Source: Bacteroidales bacterium (GTDB lineage Bacteria; Bacteroidota; Bacteroidia; Bacteroidales; UBA932). Taken from it: DNA of 32,372 bases. Positions 3,173 to 26,202 of the stretch are shown piece after piece. The notes beneath the pieces were generated by a model. It worked only from the letters and a program-made list of their open reading frames with translations, was not told the DNA's origin and made no database searches. The stretch lies in NCBI GenBank assembly GCA_017443465.1, contig JAFRXO010000048.1, forward strand, positions 1 through 32,372. The letters run 5' to 3'. The position numbers and the translations under genes are program-made. Position 1 is the first letter of the stretch; each line of letters opens with the position of its first letter.

Positions 3173-3199
3173 GGTTTCATATGTTTTTAGTGTCAGTAA

Positions 3200-3207
3200 C
3201 AAAGTTA
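3200..3207 (-). promoter_or_regulatory. TAnnTTTG -7 promoter element for the PL8 lyase
   Basis: The minus strand reads TAACTTTG, 28 bases upstream of the chosen ATG at 3172. It predicts a leader of about 20 nt and rules out the longer upstream start, which would lie outside the transcript. It is back-to-back with the plus-strand element at 3230-3237. Confidence 0.62.
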
Positions 3208-3229
3208 ATGAAAAAGTGTGTAAAAAGAC

Positions 3230-3237
3230 TATCTTTG
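3230..3237 (+). promoter_or_regulatory. TAnnTTTG -7 promoter element for the DUF4838-like lipoprotein
   Basis: The plus strand reads TATCTTTG, 22 bases upstream of the ATG at 3260, giving a predicted leader of roughly 15-18 nt. It shares an 87-bp divergent region with the lyase promoter. Confidence 0.62.
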
Positions 3238-3259
3238 CACGTACTATAATCTTTGCCAT

Positions 3260-9431: not shown

Positions 9432-9989
9432 CTAGAACATGAATCCGATACCCAGGAGCAGGGTGTTGCGGTGGATGTTGTCATCAACATTGCGGACGAC
9501 CTTGTGGATACCGAAGTCGTATCCCAGGCGGAGCTGAATGGCATCCACGATGGAAATGGCGGCTCCAACGCCCCACTGCATGTCGAAATTCTTGATGTTG
9601 ATTCCGTCATGCTCCCGGCTCTTGAAAGCATTGCCCATACCGAAATTCAGCCTCGGGCCGGTGAAAGCGGATAAGCTGACATCAGGGATGATATCATAGA
9701 TGGTGTACTTGATGTCGAAAGGCACGTTGATCCAGATAGCCTTTAGATCACCGTTACCGTTGCCATAAACGAAGTTGGCTCCCGGCTCGAAAGTCAGGCC
9801 CTCGAGGGTTGAGAAAGCGATGTCGTACTTGAGGCCGAACCAGATTCCGTGGAAATCGTAGTTGTCATATAATTCAGATCCCCCGAAACCGTTGTGGGCA
9901 TAGCCGACAAATGCTGTGTACTGCGCTGATGCATTCGTTCCGATGAGCATCATGACAGCCGCGATAGCGGCAACAATCAATTTTTTCAT
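9432..9989 (-). CDS. small outer-membrane beta-barrel protein
   Basis: 185 residues with a clean signal peptide (1-22, cleaved after ASA before QYTAF). The mature part has alternating hydrophobic/polar strands separated by short turns, and ends with an aromatic residue (GIGFMF), as outer-membrane barrels do. It resembles the porin-like/PorT-like 'outer membrane protein beta-barrel' families of Bacteroidota, probably eight strands. It starts 27 bases after the M3 peptidase stop with no TAnnTTTG element between, so it is probably the last gene of the nuclease-OB-fold operon. Its role there is unknown; a stabilising, channel or envelope-anchoring function is possible. Confidence 0.75.
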   Translation of the reverse strand: MKKLIVAAIAAVMMLIGTNASAQYTAFVGYAHNGFGGSELYDNYDFHGIWFGLKYDIAFSTLEGLTFEPGANFVYGNGNGDLKAIWINVPFDIKYTIYDIIPDVSLSAFTGPRLNFGMGNAFKSREHDGINIKNFDMQWGVGAAISIVDAIQLRLGYDFGIHKVVRNVDDNIHRNTLLLGIGFMF

Positions 9990-10016
9990 AATAGGTATTA
10001 ATTAGTTAATCATATG

Positions 10017-12044
10017 TCAGTCAATCAATCCGCGGCCTCTCAGCATCGCCTTGGTGTCAGGGTCGTTGCCTCCTGTAAACTGCTTGAAGAGGACCATAGG
10101 CTCTTCGCTTCCGCCTTTCTCCAGGAAGGTTCTCTTGAAGCGCAGGGCAGTTTCCGGATTGAATATCCCCTCACGCTCGAAATAGCTGAAGGCGTCCTTG
10201 TCGAGGACTTCGGTCCAGAGGTAGCCGTAATAACCGGCGCTGTAGCCTGAATTGAATATATGGTTGAAATATGTCGTGCGATAGCGCGGAATGATTTCCT
10301 TGGGAAGTCCCATTCCGGCGCAGACCTTTTCTTCAAATGAGTCGATGTCGGCGTCCTTCAGTTCGTCCGCGTTCAGCTCATGCCATTTCATGTCCAGGAT
10401 CGATGCGGCGCAGAGTTCGCCGGTGGTGAATCCCTGGTTGAATTTAAGGGAGTTGTTGATCTTGTCCACAAGTTCGGCGGGGATGATCTCTCCGGTCTTG
10501 TAGTTCTTGGCATAGCACTCGAGGATTTCCTTCTGGAAGGCCCAGTTCTCGTTGAACTGGGAGAAGGTCTCGACGAAGTCCCTGGTCACACCTGTACCGC
10601 TGACCGAAGGATAGTGGCATTTGGACAGGAAGCCATGGAGGGCATGTCCGAATTCGTGGAACATCGTCTGGACCTCATCCACTGTCAGCAATGAAGGAGT
10701 GTCATCCTTTGCAGGGGTGAAATTGCAGACATTCACTATGATAGGACGTACATCCTTGCCGGAGGGATCCACATACTGATCCCTTACATTGTTCATCCAG
10801 GCGCCGCCGCGCTTTGTAGAACGCGGGAAATAATCCGCCAGGAAAATACCGATGAGGTCACCGGACTCCTTGTCTGTCAGCTTGAATGCCCTGACTTCGG
10901 GATTATAGACCGGGACGTCATTAAGCTCCTCGAATTCGATACCGTACAGGCGGCTTGCAGCAGCGAAAACTCCCTGACGGACATTATCGCACAGGAAATA
11001 TGGACTGGTGACCGATTCGTCGAGATCATATTTCTGCTTACGGACCTTCTCTGCGTAATAGAACCAGTCCCAGGGCATGATCTTGGACCCGGCGGGGAGA
11101 AGTCCGGCAGCGATGTCAGCATCCATGAGTTTCTGCATATCCGCTACCTCCTCCTTCGCACGTGCGTTGGAAGCCTCCTGGATTTCACTGAGGAAAGCAT
11201 CTACAGTAGCGGGATCATGCGCCATCTTATTGTCCAGCTGATATTCAGCCCAATTGCTGAACCCCAGCATCCTGGCCTTCTCGGCACGCATGCGGAGGAT
11301 GTCCAGGCAGAGCTCGCGGGTGTCGTTCTCTCCGCCGTTGCGGCCACGGGAAGAATAGGCCTTGAACATGGCCTCCCTTCTCGCACGATCCTGGCACACA
11401 GTCATTTCCGCACTGTACTGGGAGACCGGCACATCGAACTGGGCCTTGAAGGCGTTATTCTCGGCAAGGAGCCTGTTCCCGAAAGTGTTGCTGGCCATGG
11501 AAAGCTTCCTGTTGATTTCCTTCAGGACAGCCTGGTCGGCCTCAGGAAGGTCGATTCCGTTACGGACAAAACTCTCATACAGCTTCTTCAGGACTATCTG
11601 CTGTTCCCTGGTCAGACCTTCGGTACCGGCTTCTTTGACAGCCTTCACCTTTGCGAAGAAGGCCTTGTCCATGAAGATGTCATCACTGTGGACTGTAAGG
11701 ATCTCGGTAGCTTCCTCGACCACCTTGTTCATTTCATCGTCGGCATCAGTCTCGGCGAGATTGAACAGCACTCCCTCAACCTTGGAAAGGAGAGCTCCGG
11801 AGTATTCATATGCTTCGACTACATTGGCGAATGTAGGGGCCTCCTTATTGGACTTTATGGCCTCGATTTCGGCCTTCTGCTCTTTGATACCCTCCTTGAT
11901 CGCAGGCATATAGTCCCCGACCTTTATCCTGTCGAACGGCGGAAGGCCATAGTTGGCATCCCACTGCTCAAAGAACGGATTGCCCTGTTTTGCACATGAA
12001 ACTACAGCCATAACAGCAACTATTCCGATAATAAGTTTTCTCAT
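10017..12044 (-). CDS. dcp: M3-family peptidyl-dipeptidase (Dcp-like), lipoprotein
   Basis: 675 residues. It cleaves dipeptides from the C-terminus of peptides. The thermolysin-type zinc site HEFGH is at 463-467 and the third ligand Glu492 lies 25 residues after the motif (TRDFVETF), as in oligopeptidase A/Dcp. Length and the GFSNWAEYQL and FNQGFTTGE stretches fit the Dcp subgroup. The N-terminus is a lipoprotein signal with VVSC and Cys17, so it acts outside the cytoplasm. AGGAG sits directly in front of the ATG. It starts 11 bases after the DUF5689 gene, so it belongs to the same operon as two secreted nucleases and a TonB-dependent receptor. That suggests the system's substrate may contain protein as well as nucleic acid (inference). 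Confidence 0.92.
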   Translation of the reverse strand: MRKLIIGIVAVMAVVSCAKQGNPFFEQWDANYGLPPFDRIKVGDYMPAIKEGIKEQKAEIEAIKSNKEAPTFANVVEAYEYSGALLSKVEGVLFNLAETDADDEMNKVVEEATEILTVHSDDIFMDKAFFAKVKAVKEAGTEGLTREQQIVLKKLYESFVRNGIDLPEADQAVLKEINRKLSMASNTFGNRLLAENNAFKAQFDVPVSQYSAEMTVCQDRARREAMFKAYSSRGRNGGENDTRELCLDILRMRAEKARMLGFSNWAEYQLDNKMAHDPATVDAFLSEIQEASNARAKEEVADMQKLMDADIAAGLLPAGSKIMPWDWFYYAEKVRKQKYDLDESVTSPYFLCDNVRQGVFAAASRLYGIEFEELNDVPVYNPEVRAFKLTDKESGDLIGIFLADYFPRSTKRGGAWMNNVRDQYVDPSGKDVRPIIVNVCNFTPAKDDTPSLLTVDEVQTMFHEFGHALHGFLSKCHYPSVSGTGVTRDFVETFSQFNENWAFQKEILECYAKNYKTGEIIPAELVDKINNSLKFNQGFTTGELCAASILDMKWHELNADELKDADIDSFEEKVCAGMGLPKEIIPRYRTTYFNHIFNSGYSAGYYGYLWTEVLDKDAFSYFEREGIFNPETALRFKRTFLEKGGSEEPMVLFKQFTGGNDPDTKAMLRGRGLID

Positions 12045-12055
12045 CTCCTGTGGGG

Positions 12056-13123
12056 TCAGTTAACTTTTATCCCGTCAATGTCGATCACAGTGAACTGGGC
12101 CGAGCCCTGGTAATTGCTCAGGATTCCGGTCACGTCAATGGACTTGTCCCCGCTCAGGACCGCGGAGTTGATCTTTTCGTCCGAGAAGCGGCAGAAACCG
12201 CTGGTACGGATCTGGACCTCCGTGCCTCCGCTCATCTTGAAATACTGGCTCACTGTGTAAGCAGCCCTCTCTATCTCGGGATAGAGGTTATCGGGATCCA
12301 TTCCGCGCATCGAACCGATGCTTCCGTACATGGAGTCACCGGAACCGATTACTGCGGTGTCCCATTCTCCCGCCTCGAGATGCTTGCTCATCAGTTCCTT
12401 GCTCATGGCCCAGGTGTCCACGCCCCACTGGCTGTCTGACAGGAAGCACCTGTTGGAAGGAGACTTCTTGTCGAGCTGGCTGTCCAGATAGAGGAGGACG
12501 AATATCTCGTTCGCGTACTTAAGTCCCTTCAGGGTGACGTACTTGCCGAGCCAGGGAGATGTCTGTCCGACCTTGAGGGCAGACTTGAGGTCATCCTCTG
12601 TCATCGCTTCAGGGGCCAGAGGAGTTTCCACCGCTCCCTTGAAGATGTGGGTGTTGATAAGATACTGGATGTCGATATACGAAGTCTCGTATTCTCCGGT
12701 AGGATCCTCGAAACCGAGCTGGAGCATTCCTTCTCCCTCATTAGACTGGCGTCCATAGTTGCCAAGGGTAAGGCCCTCACACTTGACCCAGATCCTCTGG
12801 CCGATCTTGTAATCGCCGTAAAGGGAGGACTTTCCTATCTTGACCTCGATGGCTCCGGTCTCATCCTGGATGAAGAAACTGCGGTAGATGTTTCCCGAAA
12901 GGTCGGAAGTCGTGATCAAGCCGCTGATTATAATGTCTTCGTCTATCTTCAGGGGTGCACCCTCATAAAGGGCCTTGAGGTCGGCAATGCTGGCATTGGC
13001 CTCCATCGACACTATGCTGGTGTTCCCGGGATCGTCGTATCCGAAAGTGAAGACCGGATCCCATTCATCGCATGACGCGCACGCAAGAAGTATCGCAGGA
13101 ATTATGTAAAGTAATCTCTTCAT
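12056..13123 (-). CDS. DUF5689-type OB-fold lipoprotein
   Basis: 355 residues. Signal peptide with lipobox (CASC, Cys19) followed by DEWD, acidic residues that often accompany surface export of lipoproteins in Bacteroidota. Residues 40-200 match the DUF5689 pattern: ASIADLKALYEG, IIISGLITTSDLSGNIYRSFFIQDETGAIEVKIG, YKIGQRIWVKCEGLTLGNYG. A second beta-rich half follows with QYFKMSGGTEVQIRTSGFCRFSDEKI and a final OB-like stretch, SIDVTGILSNYQGSAQFTVIDIDGI. DUF5689 is an OB-fold-like domain of unknown function, usually next to TonB-dependent receptors. Here it starts 4 bases after the receptor's stop codon, the position SusD would take behind SusC. I infer a ligand-capturing partner of that receptor. 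Confidence 0.85.
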   Translation of the reverse strand: MKRLLYIIPAILLACASCDEWDPVFTFGYDDPGNTSIVSMEANASIADLKALYEGAPLKIDEDIIISGLITTSDLSGNIYRSFFIQDETGAIEVKIGKSSLYGDYKIGQRIWVKCEGLTLGNYGRQSNEGEGMLQLGFEDPTGEYETSYIDIQYLINTHIFKGAVETPLAPEAMTEDDLKSALKVGQTSPWLGKYVTLKGLKYANEIFVLLYLDSQLDKKSPSNRCFLSDSQWGVDTWAMSKELMSKHLEAGEWDTAVIGSGDSMYGSIGSMRGMDPDNLYPEIERAAYTVSQYFKMSGGTEVQIRTSGFCRFSDEKINSAVLSGDKSIDVTGILSNYQGSAQFTVIDIDGIKVN

Positions 13124-13127
13124 CGCC

Positions 13128-16091: not shown

Positions 16092-16102
16092 TTACAAATG
16101 TT

Positions 16103-17197
16103 TTATTTCAGGTAGATGTAAGTAGGATAATGGTCACTGTAACCATTGATGAAATTACCGCCCGAGAAAGTGCGGAAAGGAGTGCCTTTATACGGGCCGG
16201 TCTGCTGGGTCATGAAGTCCTTCTGGAAGATACGGCCGTAATAACGGTCCTTCACTATCTTCTGGATCTTGAGTCCCTTACCGTTGGTGAGGGCCTTGTT
16301 GACCATTATGATGTCGAAGATGTTCCAGGAATTCTGGTAAGCCTCTGAACCGTAACCGTTCTTCAGCATGGAAAGGAAGGGATTGAAGAAATCCTGGTCT
16401 TTCACCTCATCGATCTTCTCGCGTCCGCGGAGATACTTGGCCATGCTGGGATCGGTAGGATTGTCGTTCATGTCACCCATGACAACGATCTTGATTCCGG
16501 GGACCTCGCGTTCGAGCTCCATGGCCCTGTTCCACATTATCTCGGCTCCCCTTTCCCTCAGGGCACTGCTCTTTTCGCCCCTGCGGGAAGGCAGGTGGGC
16601 GACGAAGAATGCGAACTCCTCTCCTGCGATGGTACCCCTGACCATAAGGATGTCACGGGTACGGAAGCTCGCTTTCTCCTCCTTGCTCATAGAGAAATCT
16701 ATGTCGGAATCGAAGGTGAAGGGAAGGGACTCGCTAGACTTGTACTTGAAGTTCTTCGGGTCATAGAGGAGGGCTACGTCCACTCCGCGGGTGTCGGGGC
16801 CGTCATAATGGACTATCTGATAATTGGCCGCCGCGATCTCCGGCTGGCTGACGAGGTCCTCGAGAACATGGCGGTTCTCGATCTCGCTGACTCCGAGGAC
16901 TGTGTGCCACTGCTGGTTGTCCTGGGCCATGGCCTTGATGACAGTAGCCATGTTGTGCTGCTTCTTCTCGTATTTGGCGTCCGTCCACTTATTCGATCCG
17001 TCGGGAAGGAACTCGTAATCGTTCTTTCCCTGGTCGTGATAGGTATCGAACAGGTTTTCCAGGTTGTAGAAGCCTATGATATAGCCCTTGCCGTCGGCAC
17101 GGGGTCCGGCAGCGGCTTCAGAGCTGACATTCTTTCCGCCCGCGCAGGATGAAACCATGGAGGCGAACAGCATCGAAATGTAAACTATCTTTCTCAT
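16103..17197 (-). CDS. EEP-family extracellular nuclease (MnuA/ExeM-like), lipoprotein
   Basis: 364 residues from the ATG at 17197, which has AGGA just in front; an in-frame TTG nine bases upstream is less likely. Lipobox SSC with Cys18. It belongs to the endonuclease/exonuclease/phosphatase superfamily (DNase I fold). Catalytic elements are all visible: NLENLFD (45-51), the metal-binding Glu in VSEIENR (105-107), His201 in FVAHLPSRRG, GDMNDNP (Asp242, Asn244) and the C-terminal SDHYP Asp-His pair. NLENLFD with NDYEF and SEIENR matches the MnuA/ExeM branch, whose characterised members are extracellular nucleases. In ExeM-type proteins the nuclease is fused to an OB-fold domain; here the OB folds are encoded separately two genes upstream. 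Phosphatase activity cannot be excluded. Confidence 0.88.
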   Translation of the reverse strand: MRKIVYISMLFASMVSSCAGGKNVSSEAAAGPRADGKGYIIGFYNLENLFDTYHDQGKNDYEFLPDGSNKWTDAKYEKKQHNMATVIKAMAQDNQQWHTVLGVSEIENRHVLEDLVSQPEIAAANYQIVHYDGPDTRGVDVALLYDPKNFKYKSSESLPFTFDSDIDFSMSKEEKASFRTRDILMVRGTIAGEEFAFFVAHLPSRRGEKSSALRERGAEIMWNRAMELEREVPGIKIVVMGDMNDNPTDPSMAKYLRGREKIDEVKDQDFFNPFLSMLKNGYGSEAYQNSWNIFDIIMVNKALTNGKGLKIQKIVKDRYYGRIFQKDFMTQQTGPYKGTPFRTFSGGNFINGYSDHYPTYIYLK

Positions 17198-17217
17198 TTC
17201 CTGCAAGTATTAATTGG

Positions 17218-18426
17218 TTAGAGCCACCACCATGTTACAGTGGTTGGATCCTGCTTTTCGACATTGGCGGCGGCCGCCTCGCCTATCACCTTCACGAGAT
17301 TCGGGAAGAGGTCGAAGCCGAGCTTGTTCTCAAGGTCGTCGATTGACATCGCATATTCCTTGGTAACGGCGCCGTTGGAGTAAGCCTTGTGCTCAAGATA
17401 ATAGCCCATGGCGATGTAGCCGTTGAAGCCGATGGTAGCATCGCTCTTGTAGCGGAGCACTGCCTTGTAATAAGCCGTAGGCACGGGGATATGCTTGCCT
17501 TGGTTGTCGAGCACGTAGTATGTAGAACCCTTGCTGACGCATCCGGTCACCACATAAACCGTATCCGAAGATTCGGTCCAGTTCCTGACACGCGCTTCGA
17601 GAGAAGCCCATATGCCATCGTTGAAGCCTTCCTGGATCTGCGGGGTGAGGTTGATGACATAGTTGGCATCGCTGTTCATCGCCCTGTCAAACCTGCGGTC
17701 TGCCTGCGGGATCTGGTGACCGCGTGCGTACCAGCCGTTATTCCCGTCCCTGAAGCCGTTGATAGCGATAGGCTGCTGGGACAGTGACAGGCCCGGGAAT
17801 GTCTTGTAGTCATCCTGCCTGCCTCCGGTGTTATTCTTGTGGTAATCCTTTATATGGGCATATGCAACCCATGATGCATTGAAGTTGGCATAATCCCAGT
17901 AGAAGGAGTAGTTCCTGGTCTTCTTGCCGCCGAAAGTCATGGGGATAGTGAAGAAATCATGCCCGTCCGATGCATTGGTCGCAGGAAGCTCAAGCCAGTC
18001 GATCGTAGTGGAAGGGACGCCCTTGTAAATGTCAGAAGGCTGGACATCTCCACCTCCGCCACCGGAAGATTTACCCTTCTGGGTAATGGCAACGGCAGAT
18101 GAAAGTCCTTTGCAAGAAAGGGTGATCTCGCACGAGCGAGGGTCGTCTCCGGGGTTCTCGGCACACAAGAGATGAAGGTTCGTGATTGTCCCTGTTCCCT
18201 TGTCCTGGCTGAGGGTCACCCAGCCGCTCTGCGAACCGGAATAGCCGACATTGAGGGTCCACTCCCCGTCCGCAGTGACGGAGACGAACTGCTCATATGC
18301 TGTCGGAGGTACGCTTACCTCCCTGATCTGAAGGATAGGAGGCATTATCTCATCATCTTCCCTGCTGCAGGAAACCGCAGAGGAGAAGATGACGGCAGAC
18401 AGCGCCCAGACAAAATATTTTTTCAT
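17218..18426 (-). CDS. DNA/RNA non-specific endonuclease (NUC/Endo G family), BACON lipoprotein
   Basis: 402 residues from the ATG at 18426; another ATG at 18438 and an in-frame TTG at 18447 are possible. Lipobox AVSC (Cys20) followed by SREDDE, an acidic run like known surface-export signals of Bacteroidota lipoproteins. Residues 32-117 are a BACON-like sandwich (GEWTLNV, SGWVTLSQDKG, ITLSCKG). A Gly-rich linker is at 119-127. Residues 142-395 are the beta-beta-alpha-metal NUC domain: RGHQIPQADR (235-244) holds the general-base His237, and NLTPQIQEGFN (259-269) holds the metal-binding Asn. The residue before RGH is Ala, where many enzymes have Asp. The family cuts DNA and RNA without sequence preference. 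It lies between the OB-repeat lipoprotein (22-base gap) and the EEP nuclease (20-base gap). Confidence 0.9.
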   Translation of the reverse strand: MKKYFVWALSAVIFSSAVSCSREDDEIMPPILQIREVSVPPTAYEQFVSVTADGEWTLNVGYSGSQSGWVTLSQDKGTGTITNLHLLCAENPGDDPRSCEITLSCKGLSSAVAITQKGKSSGGGGGDVQPSDIYKGVPSTTIDWLELPATNASDGHDFFTIPMTFGGKKTRNYSFYWDYANFNASWVAYAHIKDYHKNNTGGRQDDYKTFPGLSLSQQPIAINGFRDGNNGWYARGHQIPQADRRFDRAMNSDANYVINLTPQIQEGFNDGIWASLEARVRNWTESSDTVYVVTGCVSKGSTYYVLDNQGKHIPVPTAYYKAVLRYKSDATIGFNGYIAMGYYLEHKAYSNGAVTKEYAMSIDDLENKLGFDLFPNLVKVIGEAAAANVEKQDPTTVTWWWL

Positions 18427-18448
18427 TCCTGAGAACATATCCTTCAAA

Positions 18449-20680
18449 TTACTTCTGAAGTGTTACGACAATCTTGGATGCACGTACCTGGGCGCCAGCG
18501 GAGAACACTACTTCAGAGTTGTTTCCGACCCATGTACCGTCGTTCCCGAACACGCTGTACTCTCCGGTGGAAGATTTTTCCGAAAGATTACCCGGCCCAT
18601 ATGACTCTGATTCCTTGCCCTCGCAAGTCATGACGATCTGGGCTATCTTCGCATCCGGAGCCGAAATGGTGAGGGTTGCATCCTTGTAGATGCGGTAAGC
18701 ATTGTTCCTGACGACTCCCTGGGAGATTGTTATGGTCACGCCGTCCTTGGTGACAGTCTGGACACCGGCGGTAGTCGCCGTCTGAGGAATGTCCTTGGAA
18801 GCGTCAAAAGTTACTTCAACGCCCTCGACAGGAGGAAGAGTGCAGTTTTCGATATAGGTCTCTCTCATCTCCGGGCTCTGGTAATCATTGATCCCCTTAT
18901 ACAAGCCTACGATGGTCACCTTCGAGCCCTCCTTCAGCTTCGACTTCCATGAGTCGTAGTTGGTCGGCTTGGGAACCTCCATCCCGAACGGTATAAACTG
19001 TTCGACATCCGGTTGTTCGACTTCCGGATTCATGTAGAAACCACCATCATTGCCGACAGTGACTACCACACCTGAAATCCTGTACACGGTAGTGACAGAT
19101 CCCTTGTTTACAACCTCCTCAATCGAAGAATCCACAATCTGGGGATCAGTATAACTCTCTATGGTAACTCCCTCGAGCTGATGTACCTGTCCTTTCGGAT
19201 AGAAGGAGTATTTTCCTGTCACGGTAACGGTACCGAAGGACTTTATCTTGGATGCCCATTCATCCTTGTTGAGGACATCCAAGACATATATGGTCCCGGT
19301 GTCATCCGTCAGGTCGAAGCAGAAGTACTGGGAGTCGAAATTGTGCAACATACCGGTGACACGGTAAACCTTGGATCCGTCAGCCTCCTGGATCACCTCG
19401 GCGACAGTCGCATCCACTGCCGACGCTCCTTCCTCGAAGCTCTCGATCACTGCATTGACTATCTCGTGTTTCTGTTCCTTGGCGTAGAACTGGTACCAGC
19501 CGGTAAGGGTAACGGTTCCGCCATTGCTGATCTTGTCAACCCAGTCAGTCTTGTTGGAGACACTGTAAACGTAGATCGATCCGGTTTCGTCGGTCAGGTC
19601 GAAGCTGCAGTAGTTAGCGTTGAAATTGCTGACAGTACCGGTAAGGCGATAGAGCTTGGCGGCATTGGCTTCAGCAATAACCTCACCTACAGTTGCTTCG
19701 ACAGCTTCCTGTGAAGCCTCCTCGAAGCTCTCGATGTTAGCATCTACGATCTCATGCTTCTGGTCCTTTGCGTAATAGCTGTAGCGTCCCGTCAGGGTTA
19801 CGGTACCGCCATTCTTGATCTTGTCAACCCAGTCAGCCTTGTTGGTGACACTGTAAACATAGATCGATGCACCAGAATCATCAGTCAGGTCAAAGCTGCA
19901 GAAGTTAGCGTTGAAATTGCTGACAGTACCGGTCAGGCGATAAAGCTTGGTGGCGTCAGCGGCATCGATAACTTCCTTGACAGTAGCCTCCTGGGCCTCC
20001 TGGGACGATCCGTCCTCAAAGCTCTCGATGATGGCCTTGACGACCTCATGCTGCTGCTTGCTGCTGTAGAACTCGTAGTAACCGCTCAGGACCACGGTAC
20101 CTCCGTTCTTGATCTTGTCAACCCACTCTTCCTTGTTGGCCAGGCTGTAAACGTAGATAGTACCGCTCGCATCCGTCAGGTCGAAACTGCCGTAATTCGC
20201 ATTGTAGTTGCTGACAACACCGCTCAGACGGTGCAGGTTGGCCTTGTCAGCAAGCTGGATGAAATCGGCAACGCTCATGATGGGCTCGACATATCCGCCG
20301 CCAGGTCCTACCTGGGTGATTTGCAGAGACTTGTAATCGAATCCCATGTCAAAACGAACTATAGTGTTCCTGTCATAGGAATCATTCTCGAGGACCTCAA
20401 TCACTACTTCCTGGGGATCTGGGGATGCCTTGCCGGATTCGGGGGTAATGGAGACCCAGCCGGATTCGCATGAAGCTTTCCAATCCCTGCTCGAACGGAT
20501 CATGATAGTCTGCGTCGCCGGATCCTTTTCGAGCAGCAGGGATGTAAGGTTCTCTCCGGAAACCGAAGAAAGATTCAGCTCAGGATAGCTGAAATCAGCC
20601 TCTTCGTCATTGCATCCGGTGGCCGCAAATGTAAGGCCGGCGGCAGCAATGAACAAGAACAGCAAGTTTTTGAATTTCAT
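18449..20680 (-). CDS. surface lipoprotein with BACON domain and five tandem OB-fold-like repeats
   Basis: 743 residues from the ATG at 20680 (the frame extends two codons to a TTG). Lipobox ATGC with Cys23, then NDEEADF, an acidic surface-export-like tail. Residues 32-125 form a BACON domain (RSSRDWKASCESGWVSITPESG). Five repeats of about 90 residues follow at 135-222, 232-321, 328-418, 424-511 and 518-613. The first four are close copies with the core YRLTGTVSNFNANFCSFDLT...IYVYSV.NK.DWVDKI.NGGTVTLTG.Y..Y.K.QKHEIV.A.IESFE; the fifth is diverged. The strand pattern is that of the OB fold seen in YhcR/ExeM-type nucleases and DUF5689. The C-terminal 620-743 is a jelly-roll-like domain common at the ends of Bacteroidales surface proteins. 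First gene of the nuclease operon. A nucleic-acid-binding role is inferred. Confidence 0.8.
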   Translation of the reverse strand: MKFKNLLFLFIAAAGLTFAATGCNDEEADFSYPELNLSSVSGENLTSLLLEKDPATQTIMIRSSRDWKASCESGWVSITPESGKASPDPQEVVIEVLENDSYDRNTIVRFDMGFDYKSLQITQVGPGGGYVEPIMSVADFIQLADKANLHRLSGVVSNYNANYGSFDLTDASGTIYVYSLANKEEWVDKIKNGGTVVLSGYYEFYSSKQQHEVVKAIIESFEDGSSQEAQEATVKEVIDAADATKLYRLTGTVSNFNANFCSFDLTDDSGASIYVYSVTNKADWVDKIKNGGTVTLTGRYSYYAKDQKHEIVDANIESFEEASQEAVEATVGEVIAEANAAKLYRLTGTVSNFNANYCSFDLTDETGSIYVYSVSNKTDWVDKISNGGTVTLTGWYQFYAKEQKHEIVNAVIESFEEGASAVDATVAEVIQEADGSKVYRVTGMLHNFDSQYFCFDLTDDTGTIYVLDVLNKDEWASKIKSFGTVTVTGKYSFYPKGQVHQLEGVTIESYTDPQIVDSSIEEVVNKGSVTTVYRISGVVVTVGNDGGFYMNPEVEQPDVEQFIPFGMEVPKPTNYDSWKSKLKEGSKVTIVGLYKGINDYQSPEMRETYIENCTLPPVEGVEVTFDASKDIPQTATTAGVQTVTKDGVTITISQGVVRNNAYRIYKDATLTISAPDAKIAQIVMTCEGKESESYGPGNLSEKSSTGEYSVFGNDGTWVGNNSEVVFSAGAQVRASKIVVTLQK
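18842..20278 (-). repeat. five in-frame tandem repeats encoding OB-fold-like modules
   Basis: Units, read on the minus strand, start near 20278, 19987, 19699, 19411 and 19129. Units 2 and 3 are very similar at DNA level: a 30-base stretch at 19613-19642 recurs identically at 19904-19933, 291 bases (97 codons) apart. Such homogeneity points to recent duplication or gene conversion, so the copy number may vary between strains. Confidence 0.9.
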
Positions 20681-20739
20681 ATACAAATCTGTTTTGTTAT
20701 TAATCTGGTTATATTCGTATTCGATATTATTCCAATTTA

Positions 20740-20747
20740 CAAATATA
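20740..20747 (-). promoter_or_regulatory. TAnnTTTG -7 promoter element for the nuclease-OB-fold operon
   Basis: The minus strand reads TATATTTG in an AT-rich stretch, 60 bases upstream of the ATG at 20680. The sequence upstream has no clear TTG -33 box. It implies that the seven genes from 20680 to 9432 can be transcribed independently of the receptor unit above. Confidence 0.6.
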
Positions 20748-20807
20748 ATAAGAATTAATCGTTAAACATCGAACTGCCCGAAATAATGACACCCGCTTTC
20801 TTCATGT

Positions 20808-20819
20808 AAGCATATGCTT
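20808..20819. promoter_or_regulatory. 12-bp perfect palindrome AAGCATATGCTT
   Basis: The palindrome lies 61 bases upstream of the nuclease-operon -7 element and directly beside the left arm of the structured element. It is centred on CATATG, the hexamer over-represented across the window. It could be an operator for a dimeric regulator; this is a position- and symmetry-based guess. Confidence 0.3.
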
Positions 20820-20823
20820 GCCT

Positions 20824-20947
20824 GCCGGCTGGCTGTCTCATCCGGAGCCCGTGGTCGCCCGTGACCGCGTGAACGGGAGGGGCCCGCGCCGCAAGGCGTG
20901 GGAGGGATGAGCGAAGCGAAGGCGGACGGATGAGACAGCCTGCCGGC
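20824..20947. repeat. structured element with 21-bp inverted arms (possible dispersed palindromic repeat or ncRNA)
   Basis: Left arm 20824-20844 and right arm 20927-20947 are complementary at 20 of 21 positions; the centre is 82 bases. Inside, CCCGCGCC and GGCGTGGG pair around a GCAA tetraloop at about 20883-20902, and CCCGT/ACGGG pair near 20859-20877, so the whole can fold into a branched RNA or cruciform. It is much more GC-rich than the flanking AT-rich spacer, typical of an inserted element. There is no transposase and no convincing reading frame. I do not recognise a named RNA family. Confidence 0.6.
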
Positions 20948-20971
20948 ACGCAGCCCGGAAACACGGTGCAA

Positions 20972-21005
20972 AAAAAGAGGCCGGCTCATCTGCCGACCTC
21001 TTTTT
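20972..21005 (-). terminator. intrinsic terminator after the BACON/OB-fold lipoprotein
   Basis: Arms 20972-20985 and 20992-21005 pair over 14 positions with a 6-base loop; the one C-A mismatch on the plus strand becomes a G-U pair on the minus strand, supporting minus-strand use. A run of seven T follows on the minus strand. It begins 18 bases after the stop at 21024 and ends the receptor-lipoprotein transcript. Confidence 0.88.
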
Positions 21006-21023
21006 AAGTATCAGAGTATCAGA

Positions 21024-22865
21024 TTACTTCGCGATAAAATTATCCTGCTCCCACAGGCCAAGCTGCATCGTAGTGTTGAAGATGGTCGGGATGACGATAA
21101 CGTCACCGGTACTTCCCTTCGTCAGTTTGATGGCGTTGACCTGGGTGCGGAGGGTCATGGTCTCACCGCCCTGGGCGATCTCGACATTCGTTTTTCCGGT
21201 ACCTGCGGCATCAGCGTTGATAGTAACGCCTTCCACCTTCACCAGAGTGCTGATGTACTTGTTGAAATTAGCCTTAAGTTCAGCGATGGTCACAACCTTC
21301 GGAGCGGGAGCTGTCCCGGTGCCGATGGTAGCCCCCTCGAAGGAAGTGATTTCCGGAAGGGCGCTGTACATGTAACCGGTACCTGAGAACTCACCTCCGA
21401 CAGTGTCGCCAGGCTTCAGTCCGGTTTCGCCCTTGTAGAGAAGCAGACCGCCGCTGGCATCCTGCATGAACACATTCGAACCGTTCACATATGAAACCAC
21501 GGCCGGAGTGGCCAGTTTGGCCTCATACGGACTCGGGTTGGCGCGGTCGGTGCTGGTAATCTTGGAAACTATCTCAGCCAAGGTAGTGCACTTGGTCGTT
21601 TCCTCACCGCCTCCGCCTGCAGCAGCCTTCACTGAAGTCGCGATTACGTTAAGGTAGGTGTTTTCGCCAGAAGTGTTGTTGCCATTGTAGTAGCCCTTGA
21701 CAATCACCTTCTTACCGTTTAGGTCGGAGAGCGTACCGAGGGCATCGACAGGATTGACAAGGCTTCCCTTGACGGTAGCGCCTTCAACAGTCACGTTGGT
21801 ATAGGCACCGGCTGAAAGGACGCCTTCGAATGTCACGAACTCGGGAGTCGTAGCCGTATAGGTGTCAAACGTAGCCGTAATATCCTTCGCATCAGGATAG
21901 GTAATCTTGTTTCCGGAGCCTGCGACCTTGATGTCGGTGGGCTTGGTAACCTGAGGAATGCCGTTGGAAGTGCTCTTGGTTCCGCCGAAGCTGACTTTGT
22001 CACCTACCGTAACTGCGGGAACGCCATTGTTGTAAACATAGATGGCCGCTCCTTTGGCATCGGTCGCGACAAATCCCTTGGTAGTGATAGCGGACACAAA
22101 GGCATTCTTGGTGGAGAAAGTCTCATTGTCAGCCAGGGCCAGGACCTCGGTGATGGTAACGCTTCCGTCATCGAAAGGCTCACCGGGGGTTACGGAGATC
22201 AGGGTTCCTCCCTGATCCATCTCGGGAGTTCCCTTGTAGTCCTTGATAATGCCCTTTGCGACAATCGTCCATCCAAGGCCGAGCTGGTCCTCTGAAGTAA
22301 ACGGAGCGCCCTCAAGATACTTGACACGGTAAATCTCGAACTGGGGAGAATCCTCACTTCCGTCATCAGAGATGAAGAAGGTGGCATTGCCCCATTCCAC
22401 GCTGAGTTCAAGGATGTTAGTAATGATACCCTTGACATAGACTTCGGAAACAGGGATCTTCCCTGACTTGATGATGTTATATGCCTCAGTAGCGGTATAA
22501 GGAGTGTCCTTGCTTCCGGGAACCACCAGACCGATCTGGTTGACGGTTATCCTCTGGCTGGCTTTGCCGCAAGTGACTGTAACATAGCCGACACGGGTAT
22601 CGGAATCCGCAGCGTTGATATTCAGCGTGTAGGTTCCGGCTTCACCTGATGCGGGAGAGACCGAAAGCCATGAATCGGCGGAAGAAGCTGTCCAGGAGCC
22701 GTCAACTGTGATCTTGGTGGATGCGGTTGTGACTCCGCTGGGCATGGTAACATATGACTGGGGGACATCGATTCCCTCAGGTCTGGCGATTTCCAGGGTG
22801 TCACTGCAAGAAGAAAGCAGGGCTGCCCCAGCCAGTAATGACATGAATAAATATCTGAGTTTCAT
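21024..22865 (-). CDS. surface lipoprotein with BACON domain and several OB-fold-like modules
   Basis: 613 residues. Lipobox LSSC with Cys20. Residues 30-112 are a BACON domain (VDGSWTASSADSWLSVSPASGEAG). Residues 120-227 form a DUF6359/YhcR-like OB module (YTATEAYNIIKSGKIPVSEVYVKGIITNI, FFISDDG, IVAKGIIKDYKGTPEM). Further OB-like modules are at about 236-318 (AAIYVYNN, VTVGDKVSFGG), 328-412, 424-512 (NVFMQDASGGLLLYKG, LKPGDTVGGEFSGTGYMYSALPEI) and 524-611. The gene starts 16 bases after the stop of the TonB-dependent receptor, so the two form a receptor-plus-lipoprotein pair like SusC/SusD, but with an OB-fold protein instead of a SusD. Binding of nucleic acid or another polymer is inferred from fold and neighbours. 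The repeats here are far more diverged than those of the 18449-20680 protein. Confidence 0.8.
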   Translation of the reverse strand: MKLRYLFMSLLAGAALLSSCSDTLEIARPEGIDVPQSYVTMPSGVTTASTKITVDGSWTASSADSWLSVSPASGEAGTYTLNINAADSDTRVGYVTVTCGKASQRITVNQIGLVVPGSKDTPYTATEAYNIIKSGKIPVSEVYVKGIITNILELSVEWGNATFFISDDGSEDSPQFEIYRVKYLEGAPFTSEDQLGLGWTIVAKGIIKDYKGTPEMDQGGTLISVTPGEPFDDGSVTITEVLALADNETFSTKNAFVSAITTKGFVATDAKGAAIYVYNNGVPAVTVGDKVSFGGTKSTSNGIPQVTKPTDIKVAGSGNKITYPDAKDITATFDTYTATTPEFVTFEGVLSAGAYTNVTVEGATVKGSLVNPVDALGTLSDLNGKKVIVKGYYNGNNTSGENTYLNVIATSVKAAAGGGGEETTKCTTLAEIVSKITSTDRANPSPYEAKLATPAVVSYVNGSNVFMQDASGGLLLYKGETGLKPGDTVGGEFSGTGYMYSALPEITSFEGATIGTGTAPAPKVVTIAELKANFNKYISTLVKVEGVTINADAAGTGKTNVEIAQGGETMTLRTQVNAIKLTKGSTGDVIVIPTIFNTTMQLGLWEQDNFIAK

Positions 22866-22881
22866 ACTTCTATCGCCTTAA

Positions 22882-25800
22882 TTAGTTGAACATATACCTT
22901 AAGCCGACCTGGAGGTACCAGCACTGGCCGATGGAGTGGTTGTAATCCCATGTCTTGGCCCCTGCGGGAACAGAGGTCTTGAAATAGGGAACTCCAGTGT
23001 CATCCACATGGTCCACACTGAGGATCTTTCCGCTGAGGGCGGTAATGGCAGGAGACCATGTCTTGCCGACACCCCAGCTGTCGTTGAAGAGATTGAGGAC
23101 ATTGATGAGGTCAGCGCTGAGCTGGAGAGTGTTGGTAGTGTTGCCGATCTTGATCTTGAAGTCATGCATATACTTGAAATTCAAGGTGTGGCGCATCGGA
23201 GCGAAGACTGAATAAGCCTGGGCATACTCACCCTTGTGGCTGCTCAGGTACTTGTCCTGCTCAAGGAAGGACCAGAAACGGTCAGCGTTGTCCTGGTTGA
23301 TGAAATTGATCTCGGAAGCATCCTTCGGGATGTAGATCAGGTCGTTCTTGACGCCGTCATAGTTCATGTCACCGTCGAAGAGGTAAGACCTGCCGCCGCC
23401 CTGGGAACCCTGATAGAACAGGCTGTAGTGATTGTTCGCCCTGTCGGAGTAAGACACCGAAGCTATGATCTTGTGGGGATACATATAGGCCGAATTATGC
23501 AGGCCGCCGAAGTTGGTTCCTTCCACAGTCGGTACTCCGGTGAAAGTGGAAGTCGCGTTGTTTCCCGGGAGGTCAGTCACTTCCTTGGTGACAGTACGGG
23601 TGTAGGCGGCCATGATGTTAAGACCTTCAACCGGACGGGCATTGATGGTGATGTTGCCAATGATTCCGTAGCCCTTGTTGGTGTTGGTCAGGACATATGC
23701 ATTGTGGCCGGTATAGCGGAAATCCTCAGGATACATATGACGGTCGTCTGTGCCGGTAAACCTTGCCCAGGATTCGTTGTCCTTGATGTTCCAGTCAACG
23801 ACGGTGGCCATATTGATGGCCTTGTTGTAGATAACCTCTCCAGTGACGGTAAGGGGGAATCCGACCGGAAGATTGTAGTCCACTGCGATGGAGCTCTTCC
23901 AGACCTGGGGCATCTTGAACTTGGGATCAACCCCGGCGATGTCGCCGCCGATAGTTCCCTTCTCAGGAGAAATGGTGGTGGGCCACTTCTCGGGATCGAT
24001 GGAGTGGAGCTTCTCGACAAGCGCGTCCACGTCCGTTATGATGTTGCCTGCGAACTGATCGAGTTCGCTGTCCCTGCTCTCAACGGTACCGTTTGCCTTA
24101 TAAGCAGTTGCATATGCGGCAGGACCATACTGAACCATGTTCGAGTTGGTAGGCATGTTGGTGAAGAACACCTGCGGAAGCCTTCCGAGGAAGAGACCGG
24201 TACCGCCGCGGACCTTGAGGCTGCGGTCGCCAAAGACATCCCATGTAAAGCCGATACGCGGAGAAGGAATGAGTTTCGTGGTAGGCCATTTGCCTGTGTC
24301 AACACGCCTTCCGCCGAAATCCAAGGCATAGACCGCATTGTTCCTCATGATGTCCTTGTCGTTGAAAAGGATGGTGTCGAAGCGAAGGCCGCCGGTAAGG
24401 GTGAGCCTCGGGGTGGCGCTCCATTCGTCCTGCAGGTAAAGACCGATCTGGTCGATGTTCACGCGGGCTGCAGGATTGCGTTCACCGTCATAACCGTAGG
24501 TGACGGCGACAATCTCGGGAGCGGCTTTGGCAAGGAAGTCATCCAGGCTGCGGTAGCGGTAGTAACCGGTACCTTCCCTCATGTAGGCATTGTCGGTCAT
24601 CTGATGCTCGTAGCTGGCACCGGCAGTGATCTTGTGCGCACCGAGGAAATAAGTGATGTCATCCTTGATGTTGAAAGTCTTGCTGTGGACACCGTTGTTC
24701 CAGGTGAAGAGCTCATATCCTGCTGAAATGTAAGGCTCAATGGTCTGGACAACGTTTCCTGCCTTGTCGACTGTGTAGCCGTTCATGATGTCGATGAAGG
24801 GGAACTTGGATGAGTTGGAGCCCCTCATGTCCGAGCTGTTGGTATAGGTCGAAAGGAGCTGGTTGGAGAGCCTGTCGGAAAGACGGCTGTTCAGGTCAAC
24901 TGAAACGGACCAGACATCCCTGTCAGTGGTGTAAGTGGAGTTGGCATAGGACATACCGTACTGGGACACCCTGTTGAAAGAATTGTGACGACGGTTGGCG
25001 TCCTGGGGGTCCATGGAGTTGCCGTTGGTCGGGCTCCAGCTCGCATCCTTGGTGATATTGTAACGGACTGCAAGATGATGCTTCTGGGTGATGTTCCAGT
25101 CAATCCTTGCCAGGAACTTGTTGTTGCTGTTTTCCGCCGGGAAATCAGTGTAGGAACCGGTGTCGTAACCGTACTCGTTATACAGGAAGTCCTTTACCTT
25201 CTGGAGGTCGGAAAGCTTTGCCCTGGATATGTATTTCTGGACATCCATCTTACCGTCCTCCGATCCGCGCCAGCGGTTGACAACGGTAGGCTCCTTAACC
25301 TGCTCCCAGTTCACGAAGAAGAAGAGCTTGTTCTTGATGATGGGACCGCCGAGGGTGAAACCATATGTGGTGTTCCTCTGCTTGTCGCGGGCGCCTGAAA
25401 CGGCGGTGCCGTCGATGTAGTCTCCCCTCATCTGCTCATTGCGGTGATAGACATATGCCGAGCCCTTGAAGGTGTTGGTTCCGGACTTGGTGATGGCATT
25501 GATTCCGCCGCCGATGAAGTTCGACTGACGAACGTCGAACGGGGAAACGGCCACCTGCATCTCCTCGATGGCATCGATGGAAATAGGATTTCCGCCACCG
25601 GGAAGGTTGTCATTCAGACCGAAGTTGTTGTTGAAATTGGCTCCGTCAACAGTGAAGTTCGTCATACGGCCGTCGCTTCCGGCGAGGGACATTCCGCTTC
25701 CGGCATAAGGTGACAGCTTGGCCATGTCCTGGATATCCCTGTAAGCCGAGGGCAGGACCATCATCTCTTTGTTGCTGATATTGGTCGTAGCACCTGTCTT

Positions 25801-26202
25801 CTGTACTGCGGCGAATTTGGAGGTAGGTGAAGCGACTACTACAACCTCATTGAGCTGCTCGGTGCTTGTGCGCAGTGTGGCGTCGAGATTATAGAGCTCG
25901 CCGAGCTGGAGGGTGACATCGGTGTTGCTTACTGTCTGGTAGCCGAGGCTGGATACCTCTACAGTGTAAGGACCACCGGTACGCATACCCTGGATGGTGT
26001 AACGTCCGTCGAGGTTGGTGATGACACCATACACGGTTCCGGAGGGGGTGTGGGTAGCCACGATGGCTGCACCCGGCACCGGTTCGCCGTTCTCATCGAC
26101 GACCCGTCCGCCCAGAGACGAAGTGGTCACCTGGGCATAAGAGACAATCCCCGCGAAGGCAGCAGCCATCACGAGAAAAATACGCTTGAAAGAATACATC
26201 AT
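22882..26202 (-). CDS. Oar-like TonB-dependent receptor
   Basis: 1106 residues from the first of two adjacent ATGs (26202, 26199). The frame stays open to 26388, but that would run through the promoter and into the metK leader, and MMYSFKRIFLVMAAAFAGIVSYAQ is a good signal peptide. Residues 27-115 are a carboxypeptidase-regulatory-like domain (GGRVVDENGEPVPGAAIVATHTPSG...), followed by EQLNEVVVVAS in the TonB-box region and a plug with NFTVDGANFNNNFGLNDNLPGGGNPISIDAIEEMQVAVSPFD in fragments typical of Oar-type receptors. A long barrel ends in GLRYMFN. Oar relatives move large ligands or proteins across the outer membrane. It heads the upstream unit of the OB-fold/nuclease region and pairs with the lipoprotein directly downstream. 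Confidence 0.9.
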   Translation of the reverse strand: MMYSFKRIFLVMAAAFAGIVSYAQVTTSSLGGRVVDENGEPVPGAAIVATHTPSGTVYGVITNLDGRYTIQGMRTGGPYTVEVSSLGYQTVSNTDVTLQLGELYNLDATLRTSTEQLNEVVVVASPTSKFAAVQKTGATTNISNKEMMVLPSAYRDIQDMAKLSPYAGSGMSLAGSDGRMTNFTVDGANFNNNFGLNDNLPGGGNPISIDAIEEMQVAVSPFDVRQSNFIGGGINAITKSGTNTFKGSAYVYHRNEQMRGDYIDGTAVSGARDKQRNTTYGFTLGGPIIKNKLFFFVNWEQVKEPTVVNRWRGSEDGKMDVQKYISRAKLSDLQKVKDFLYNEYGYDTGSYTDFPAENSNNKFLARIDWNITQKHHLAVRYNITKDASWSPTNGNSMDPQDANRRHNSFNRVSQYGMSYANSTYTTDRDVWSVSVDLNSRLSDRLSNQLLSTYTNSSDMRGSNSSKFPFIDIMNGYTVDKAGNVVQTIEPYISAGYELFTWNNGVHSKTFNIKDDITYFLGAHKITAGASYEHQMTDNAYMREGTGYYRYRSLDDFLAKAAPEIVAVTYGYDGERNPAARVNIDQIGLYLQDEWSATPRLTLTGGLRFDTILFNDKDIMRNNAVYALDFGGRRVDTGKWPTTKLIPSPRIGFTWDVFGDRSLKVRGGTGLFLGRLPQVFFTNMPTNSNMVQYGPAAYATAYKANGTVESRDSELDQFAGNIITDVDALVEKLHSIDPEKWPTTISPEKGTIGGDIAGVDPKFKMPQVWKSSIAVDYNLPVGFPLTVTGEVIYNKAINMATVVDWNIKDNESWARFTGTDDRHMYPEDFRYTGHNAYVLTNTNKGYGIIGNITINARPVEGLNIMAAYTRTVTKEVTDLPGNNATSTFTGVPTVEGTNFGGLHNSAYMYPHKIIASVSYSDRANNHYSLFYQGSQGGGRSYLFDGDMNYDGVKNDLIYIPKDASEINFINQDNADRFWSFLEQDKYLSSHKGEYAQAYSVFAPMRHTLNFKYMHDFKIKIGNTTNTLQLSADLINVLNLFNDSWGVGKTWSPAITALSGKILSVDHVDDTGVPYFKTSVPAGAKTWDYNHSIGQCWYLQVGLRYMFN

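Follow-up and report, generated by a model that had tools for sequence, protein, structure and literature searches.

A receptor, DUF5689 lipoprotein, and EEP nuclease locus of a Bacteroidales genome: a probable outer-membrane DNA-import station related to a transformation gene pair of Riemerella anatipestifer

The window (i.e., the whole 32,372-nucleotide stretch analyzed) contains a minus-strand locus that probably encodes a Bacteroidota outer-membrane station for DNA import, together with a lineage-specific extension. The conserved core consists of a DUF5689 lipoprotein (P0003; 12056..13123), a dedicated TonB-dependent outer-membrane receptor (P0004; 13128..16091), and an EEP-superfamily nuclease (P0005; 16103..17206). 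A NUC nuclease (P0006) and an OB-repeat lipoprotein (P0007), encoded at 17218-20686, are a lineage-specific addition. Judged by sequence, the P0004/P0003 pair is orthologous to a pair needed for natural transformation of the duck bacterium Riemerella anatipestifer. A preliminary description had proposed that the locus captures and imports nucleic acid. Given the orthology of P0004/P0003 to the R. anatipestifer pair, the recurrent nucleases, and the predicted OB folds, this proposal is right in kind, with DNA as the probable cargo; of the systems that have been tested, the one closest to it serves competence, rather than feeding of the Sus-like kind then suggested. The receptor-DUF5689 pair of R. 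anatipestifer and its part in natural transformation are already known, as reported in PMC8459023; the nuclease of the trio, its lineage-specific extension, and the Bacteroidales form are new.

All nine minus-strand ORFs described earlier were confirmed within 9432-26202, in two units separated by 337 bases. The gaps are 27, 11, 4, 11, 11, and 1 bases in the first unit and 16 bases in the second. P0005, P0006, and P0007 each have a TTG as the listed start, and an ATG 2 to 3 codons downstream is more likely in each case; thus, some of the gaps are in reality longer by a few bases. The listed start of P0009 is 26388, while the ATG preceding its signal peptide lies at 26202, the start first assigned to it. 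The locus had no megablast match among phage records.

The receptor P0004, a predicted DNA translocon and putative orthologue of RA0C_RS04915, had no Pfam match to a barrel or plug (CarboxypepD_reg only). Its model has the fold of plugged TonB-dependent receptors of the FhuA/FecA/YncD type, as matched by Foldseek (best E value, 3.0e-26; YncD, FecA, FhuA, and OprC at ≤1e-19; 231 matches at ≤0.001), and has low confidence in parts of the plug region. The presence of two TonB-dependent receptors in the locus stands by Pfam for P0009 (PF25183) and by model fold for P0004. Two solved structures matched the receptor profile, in an N-terminal stretch only (positions 20-122). P0004 and the R. anatipestifer receptor share 31.3% identity over 907 columns. 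In a quick tree without bootstrap, both fell on a 50-row side (SH-aLRT, 100) that also held two diverged rows of the window's family (L079 and L080); the second R. anatipestifer receptor was on the opposite side, as were 21 of the 23 rows for paralogs.

P0003 (PF18942, 4.4e-40) begins 4 bases after P0004 and is a predicted DNA-capture subunit. Structure prediction, proposed earlier as a check on the OB modules, gave an AF2 model (pLDDT, 89.7) in which both halves match OB folds, so that P0003 is predicted to consist of two such folds in tandem. It aligns with the R. anatipestifer protein at 28.8% identity over 264 columns. Sequence similarity indicates that P0003 is a homologue of RA0C_RS04920 minus the C-terminal choice-of-anchor J domain, for which P0003 had no match and which is present in the R. 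anatipestifer protein and in 10 of 18 aligned proteins. Against the NCBIfam model NF052645 (M949_1556 family lipoprotein; cutoff, 475 bits), P0003 scored 54.8 and the R. anatipestifer protein 590.8. Among DUF5689 sequences that carry a lipobox-like signal, 40 of 73 had at least two acidic residues at +2 to +6, versus 10 of 75 other such ORFs. Among solved structures, the DUF5689 part (8jiy matches the C-terminal part of the profile only), the EEP nuclease, and the receptor barrel had no sequence match.

Both nuclease assignments were borne out by Pfam (P0005, PF19580, 9.1e-96; P0006, PF01223, 2e-32). P0005, the counterpart of RA0C_RS04910, is 35.5% identical to the R. anatipestifer EEP gene product over 338 columns. 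The canonical active-site positions of EEP enzymes (N, E, H, GD-ND, and DH) are invariant across 18 aligned EEP sequences, including that of the window. Its description as a lipoprotein holds for P0005 and not for EEP nucleases in general: a lipobox-like signal was detected in 2 of 64 sequences (i.e., the window's and L076), and the latter is a false match by its letters. Because the signal is peculiar to the window's EEP, a periplasmic location is more likely for these nucleases generally.

Far beyond close relatives, the neighborhood of the core is conserved. Of 20 loci chosen across the class by the receptor alone, 19 had DUF5689 directly downstream and 15 had EEP upstream. For the window's family, the corresponding adjacent genes were present in 15 and 14 of its 17 receptor loci, and in 6 of 6 each in the Riemerella-like family, for which the loci were chosen via its lipoprotein family. 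As a control, 20 paralogous receptors had neither (0/20 and 0/20). On these counts, the receptor-DUF5689-EEP association is more than chance, and the condition set earlier for refuting the proposal, a neighborhood confined to close relatives, does not hold. Medium-scoring receptors (about 1e-40 to 1e-90) were rejected as being of the R. anatipestifer type, as none of 20 had DUF5689 or EEP within two genes and R. anatipestifer itself carries one receptor of each kind. The families labeled f147 and f117 in our survey are presumably Flavobacteriaceae and Weeksellaceae.

The R. anatipestifer genome contains a single full-length core receptor (4.6e-285, against 1.8e-52 for the next match) and one DUF5689 gene (E ≤ 0.001), which adjoins it. 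The gene order there is recA, dinB, sdhB, sdhA, sdhC, comEC, two genes, EEP, receptor, and DUF5689. This order and spacing match RA0C_RS04870 (RecA), 04895 (ComEC), 04915, and 04920 in steps of five; the EEP gene, divergent from the receptor, is RS04910 by position. Markerless deletion of either RA0C_RS04915 or RA0C_RS04920 brought natural transformation below detection (Table 2 of PMC8459023; Huang et al. 2021), and tonBA and tonBB mutants of the species show reduced transformation. One sentence of that report describes homologues of the new genes as widespread in Bacteroidetes, especially Flavobacteriaceae, and another places the receptor homologue in Flavobacteriaceae only (PMC8459023). This work was overlooked when it was stated that no named system has such a set of genes.

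The extension lies directly upstream of the core. P0006 (17218..18447) is a BACON and NUC-superfamily (DNA/RNA non-specific endonuclease; Endonuclease_NS) lipoprotein that keeps the RGH and N-x-x-P-Q motifs. In the window's family, a NUC gene is found at this position in 10 of the 17 receptor loci, and 13 of 15 NUC sequences have a lipobox-like signal. P0007 (18449..20686) is a BACON and repeated OB-fold lipoprotein (PF01336, 7.8e-18, four stretches; PF13742, 6.3e-16) with a predicted role in surface capture. Its relatives occur in L064-L068 and L095, and elsewhere BACON/DUF5689-repeat lipoproteins take the same place. Repeated independent recruitment of NUC was rejected: in the tree, which left out L090 and L099 (both with NUC nearby), a single clade contains those rows of L064-L073, L105, and L095 that have NUC, and a common origin is therefore possible for them.

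We propose the following route. The OB-fold lipoproteins with acidic tails (P0003 and P0007) would hold extracellular DNA at the cell surface, where the NUC lipoprotein P0006 would cut it. P0003 may lid P0004 by analogy with SusD on SusC. P0004 would then pass DNA to the periplasm by TonB work, as suggested by the need for the homologous gene pair in R. anatipestifer, and the EEP nuclease would process it there. A ComEA-like helix-hairpin-helix (HhH) candidate and ComEC, both encoded in the genome, could carry one strand to the cytoplasm. Recombination and nucleotide feeding would have the outer-membrane step in common.

For these later steps, a 316-residue frame with two HhH stretches (G000:C3:17138-17506) was found; such motifs are also present in unrelated proteins and in each of the 39 family genomes. 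The ComEC channel domain (G000:C2:19282-20007; Pfam, 6.4e-46) lies in a 362-residue ORF in which it alone was recognized, with no DUF4131 or metallo-beta-lactamase match. A ComEC pseudogene in the genus was rejected: stops were flagged in the window genome and a congener, but ORFs of 362 and 373 residues are open, and the flagged stop arose because the profile overruns the gene end. The two ORFs have similar neighbors (by eye). ComEC frames of <500 residues occurred in 11 of 12 window-family genomes with a co-directional EEP (one of the 11, G108, has a split frame), in 0 of 6 with other core-type or diverged receptors, and in 12 of 21 without a core receptor. Compensation of the short ComEC by the operon nucleases was rejected, as the pattern is inseparable from phylogeny and looks like a clade trait, and as the ComEC of R. 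anatipestifer had no nuclease-domain match either. Co-occurrence with ComEC was likewise rejected as proof of transformation, since ComEC is near-universal (96 of 99 genomes).

We tentatively propose, at slightly less than even confidence, that Bacteroidota rely class-wide on a pilus-free, TonB-driven DNA importer, in which an OB-fold surface lipoprotein forms the lid of a dedicated plugged barrel that has a nuclease of its own. The same machine would serve both for eating DNA and for transformation, and lineages would adjust it through added nucleases and OB-repeat capture proteins. It is also possible, although we lean somewhat against it, that extracellular DNA or RNA is digested and imported for phosphate, nucleosides, and nitrogen, with transformation as a by-product or absent. 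Feeding is favored by the lipoprotein NUC, which would cleave DNA as it comes in; by the occurrence at such loci of nucleases from three superfamilies (EEP, NUC, and, in L099, Endonuclease I); by the receptor in all three genomes without a ComEC match; and by the compact form of the window's ComEC. However, the sole tested homologous pair is essential for transformation, according to PMC8459023. Moreover, no metallo-beta-lactamase match was obtained for the R. anatipestifer ComEC either, although genetics shows it to be needed; transformation is therefore not excluded by a short ComEC. In the unit and the flanking genes scanned, none of the families recognized was a nucleotidase, a nucleoside transporter, or a phosphate-uptake family. 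Nutritional scavenging shares the DNA-import step with the preferred reading, and the confidences in the two overlap.

The remaining genes had been counted as parts of one nine-gene system, a view that the mapped loci do not support. P0009 (22882..26202) is a TonB-dependent receptor with a PF25183 barrel (6.6e-51; Pfam name OMP_b-brl_4; Oar type). Its partner P0008 (21024..22865) is a BACON lipoprotein (1.4e-11). Of the three lipoproteins first described as OB-fold rich, P0003 and P0007 were upheld, while P0008 rests on a sub-cutoff DUF5689 match (1.3e-5; 21060-21323) and on phmmer kinship with lipoproteins of the DUF5689/OB-repeat kind in four other loci (7e-35 at best, to the OB-repeat one of L064). 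By these similarities, P0008 appears to be a diverged relative of the capture lipoproteins. P0002 (10017..12044) is an M3 peptidase lipoprotein (PF01432, 3.8e-123), and P0001 (9432..9989) is a small outer-membrane barrel (PF13505, 3e-6, just under the cutoff); both are co-located and not conserved partners. In one-sequence searches of 60 mapped loci (stretches of ≤20 kb), P0009 had relatives in L067 and L064 only, in each case followed directly by an OB-repeat lipoprotein; P0002 had one beside the core only in the same-genus L067, and P0001 had relatives only in two order loci, L107 and L115, where several genes separate them from the core. It is thus unlikely that P0009 and P0008 form another import or export gate of the same system, perhaps with the M3 peptidase acting on nucleoprotein, and the membership of both is uncertain. 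The tight spacing within units and the kinship of P0008 would fit such a gate, as would L067, where Oar, OB-repeat, NUC, EEP, receptor, DUF5689, and M3 genes are contiguous, and L064, where the Oar gene and its lipoprotein lie a few genes away; against it stand the rarity of these relatives and the gap between the units. Import of another ligand (for example, nucleoprotein, peptides, or glycans), with incidental nucleases and OB folds and an indirect R. anatipestifer phenotype, is improbable: genes for an M3 peptidase and a PL8 lyase are close by, OB folds can have oligosaccharides or proteins as ligands as well, and the title of the M949_1556 paper gives an antigenicity and pathogenicity phenotype, but the M3 relative recurs in just one other mapped locus, EEP is adjacent in most lineages, none of the nine proteins matched the SusD family, and each single deletion reported in PMC8459023 brought transformation below detection.

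If Bacteroidota do use such an importer, a barrel that passes DNA would be a route of gene transfer, and competence in this phylum would gain its missing outer-membrane step, possibly in Bacteroidales (e.g., Porphyromonas gingivalis) as well. To our knowledge, DNA would be a new cargo for TonB-dependent barrels. For P. gingivalis, PMC11532111 states that DNA import into the periplasm "remains unclear," that no T2SS or T4SS has been identified, and that the T4P-like pilus is not involved. With the receptor-DUF5689-EEP trio present class-wide and in Bacteroidales, the outer-membrane DNA question becomes a short list of deletions.

Several known systems resemble the locus in part. Type IV pilus/secretin machines deliver DNA through the outer membrane to ComEA/ComEC, whereas the gate proposed here is a TonB-dependent barrel; no pilus or secretin family was recognized among the window proteins scanned. 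ExeM/NucH nucleases combine the themes of OB-like and EEP domains, which are in separate genes in the window; against the family cutoff of 300 bits, P0008 reached 17.8 bits, and P0005 did not match at E ≤ 0.01. SusC/SusD and BtuB/BtuG are receptor-lipoprotein couples of Bacteroidota and likewise pair a TonB-dependent receptor with a lipoprotein in one operon. Compared with Sus, the window's lipoprotein is a predicted tandem OB protein, nucleases replace glycosidases, and the ligand would be DNA. The suggested nucleic-acid counterpart of a Sus feeding system is not directly supported, as no SusD-family match was found among the nine proteins and none exceeded the SusC/RagA cutoff (TIGR04056, 368.25 bits; P0004, no match; P0009, 62.4 bits). 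P0009, of a family other than P0004, has an Oar-like barrel, and Oar of Myxococcus is reportedly needed for secretion of the PopC protease. PMC8383284 mentions TonB-dependent secretion in Myxococcus. The closest likeness is to RS04915/RS04920 of R. anatipestifer, with a receptor of the same clade, a DUF5689 lipoprotein directly downstream, and an adjacent EEP gene. The window differs in that its EEP gene is co-directional rather than divergent, that P0003 is without the choice-of-anchor J domain, that comEC is on a separate contig instead of a few genes away, and that a NUC nuclease and an OB-repeat lipoprotein are added.

ORF calling and Pfam searches bore out the preliminary description of nine minus-strand genes at 9432 to 26202: the genes are real, their order is correct, and the families are those originally named. 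P0003 is a Pfam DUF5689 protein, and P0004, which had no Pfam barrel match, is identified by its predicted fold as a TonB-dependent receptor. Four OB stretches were recognized by Pfam in the BACON lipoprotein P0007; the BACON lipoprotein P0008 contains a DUF5689 stretch below the cut-off and matches OB-repeat and DUF5689 lipoproteins from other loci. Megablast of the locus against phage records gave no match. The window spans the entire contig. Of ten flanking ORFs scanned, one had no match and the others belonged to common families: an AraC-type regulator, PL8 lyase, DUF4838, RNase R-type, ROK, phosphomannose-isomerase-like, metK, IPP transferase, and methyltransferase. The polysaccharide lyase family 8 gene lies back to back with the DUF4838/CBM9 gene (1436 to 4909), just outside the nine genes.

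Neighborhoods were taken around relatives at three levels (the window's family, order, and class), with genes called by script and labeled from profiles of the window proteins and their relatives. DUF5689 and EEP nuclease genes were counted within two genes of the receptor, and NUC nuclease genes within three genes if co-directional. For the window's family, 17 of 20 loci were retained (L081 to L083 were excluded because their receptors scored weakly); DUF5689 was downstream of the receptor in 15 of these, EEP was upstream in 14 (11 co-directional and 3 divergent), and NUC was counted in 10. At the order level, EEP was present in 26 of 38 loci (25 divergent and 1 co-directional; two receptors were at a contig end), while the DUF5689 count (38/38) is biased because these loci were chosen from DUF5689 matches. 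The class set (20 loci drawn from 47 strong receptor rows) had DUF5689 in 19 and EEP in 15, and both genes were present in all six loci of the Riemerella-like family, which were chosen by its lipoprotein family. Among 20 paralogous receptors serving as a control, neither gene was found (0/20 for each). On the basis of these counts and the control, we conclude that DUF5689, the receptor, and EEP form a conserved core, to which the window's lineage adds NUC together with large lipoproteins that combine BACON with OB or with repeated DUF5689 domains. We also observed metK near the core locus in the window (26414 to 27748, by Pfam) and in a Riemerella-like genome (L234:2775-4142, by eye), reflecting either an old common neighborhood or coincidence.

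In L099 (8125-9600), a gene for a DUF4493 and Endonuclease I protein lay directly upstream of a core receptor and co-directional with it, which brings the nuclease superfamilies seen at these loci to three. Elsewhere, a BACON, DUF5689, and lamin-tail lipoprotein (L095:8096-9847) followed the receptor and DUF5689 and preceded NUC, and the position of P0007 was taken by giant proteins with three (L069:3532-6426) or four (L071:13931-17044) DUF5689 stretches.

Relatives of P0001, P0002, and P0009 were rare among 60 mapped loci, although their absence is weak evidence because the searches used one sequence each. The M3 peptidase P0002 had a relative only in the same-genus L067, the small barrel P0001 only in L107 and L115, distant from the core, and the Oar-type receptor P0009 only in L067 and L064 (plus L122, the remainder of the window's own contig). 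An OB-repeat lipoprotein directly followed the P0009 relative in both L067 and L064; in the latter (L064:3-4530), these two genes correspond to the P0009-P0008 couple and lie within a few genes of the core.

DUF5689 was present in 58 of 99 order genomes, and the receptor (E ≤ 1e-100) in 49, of which 46 had matches at 1e-190 or better. At E ≤ 1e-150, the receptor was detected in 71 of 80 genomes of one class family, which we infer to be Flavobacteriaceae. Four core receptor matches (G045:C48:7760-10273, G026:C16:29535-32249, G091:C13:182499-185099, and G348:C1:3462140-3464716) each contained one in-frame stop, reflecting either gene decay or an error in assembly.

Within the open-licence literature searched, DUF5689 appeared in a single paper, which screened transposon mutants of Riemerella anatipestifer for natural transformation (PMC8459023). 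The DUF5689 gene of that study, RA0C_RS04920, adjoins RA0C_RS04915 (a CarboxypepD_reg outer-membrane protein), and markerless deletion of either abolished transformation, which fell from 5.4e-5 in the wild type to below the limit of detection (mean, 4.2e-10) (PMC8459023). To compare this pair with the window's genes, we used the genome of R. anatipestifer strain CCUG25054, found with a published comEC primer. This genome had a single full-length receptor-profile match (4.6e-285; next best, 1.8e-52) and, directly downstream, its one DUF5689 gene at E ≤ 0.001. The contig order was recA, dinB, sdhB, sdhA, sdhC, comEC, two genes, EEP, receptor, and DUF5689 (comEC, EEP, the receptor domain, and DUF5689 were labeled by Pfam and the remaining genes by eye). 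With tags in steps of five, this order fits strain ATCC 11845 (04870, RecA; 04895, ComEC; 04915; 04920) and makes RA0C_RS04910 the EEP nuclease by position; for 04910, the Results of the screen give only an unchanged transcript level (PMC8459023).

Window and R. anatipestifer proteins shared 31.3% (receptor; 907 columns), 28.8% (DUF5689 lipoprotein; 264 columns), and 35.5% (EEP; 338 columns) identity. In a 72-row quick tree, the two receptors were on the same side of a branch (SH-aLRT, 100); 21 of the 23 paralog rows fell on the opposite side, together with the second R. anatipestifer receptor. The remaining two paralog rows, L079 and L080, are strongly diverged receptors from the window's own family that have neither a DUF5689 nor an EEP neighbor and form a long branch on the core side. 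The R. anatipestifer lipoprotein (L241:4340-5746) is a member of the NCBIfam M949_1556 family (590.8 bits; cut-off, 475); P0003 scored below the cut-off (54.8 bits), and the model matched each of the 18 aligned DUF5689 proteins, including P0003, at E ≤ 0.001. M949_1556 itself, which we infer to be the same gene as RA0C_RS04920, reportedly affects antigenicity and pathogenicity, according to the title of a paper.

Among sequences with a lipobox-like signal, scored by a simple pattern, at least two acidic residues at +2 to +6 were present in 40 of 73 DUF5689 and 6 of 13 NUC proteins and in 10 of 75 other ORFs of the same loci (Fisher p, 1e-7, an overstatement because the sequences are related and some lipoboxes are false). 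Acidic residues at these positions are at the heart of the surface-export signal (PMC5080379). The lipobox-like signal itself occurred in 13 of 15 NUC proteins and in 2 of 64 EEP proteins (i.e., the window's P0005 and one false match judging by letters). These counts suggest a model in which the OB lipoproteins and NUC would be outside the cell and EEP in the periplasm, with P0005 a probable exception in being lipid-anchored.

Import of DNA across the outer membrane by this locus is likely in our view, and the imported DNA may serve transformation or feeding. Transformation is favored by the tested R. anatipestifer pair, by the reported TonB dependence of transformation in that species (PMC8383284), where tonBB may act through iron, and by the ComEC and HhH proteins encoded in the window genome. 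The window organism's ComEC is a compact form in which the channel domain alone was recognized (362 to 373 residues in the window's genus; G000:C2:19282-20007 [L250:2919-4004] and L251:3728-4846), and the ComEC frame was <500 residues in 23 of 39 genomes of the window's family; the R. anatipestifer ComEC, which is needed for transformation, also had no metallo-beta-lactamase match. Feeding is favored by the nucleases at the locus and by three genomes that have the receptor and no ComEC match.

We searched the open-licence literature, excluding preprints, by title and abstract opening for DUF5689, RA0C tags, nucleic-acid import, and natural transformation in Bacteroidota, and found no description of the trio with its nuclease or of the Bacteroidales form. 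The receptor-DUF5689 pair itself is already known; the screen report notes homologs across Bacteroidetes, yet states that the receptor occurs only in Flavobacteriaceae (PMC8459023). What is new relative to the literature searched is EEP as a partner of the pair, the extension by a nuclease and OB-repeat proteins in the window's lineage, and the class-wide map of the trio.
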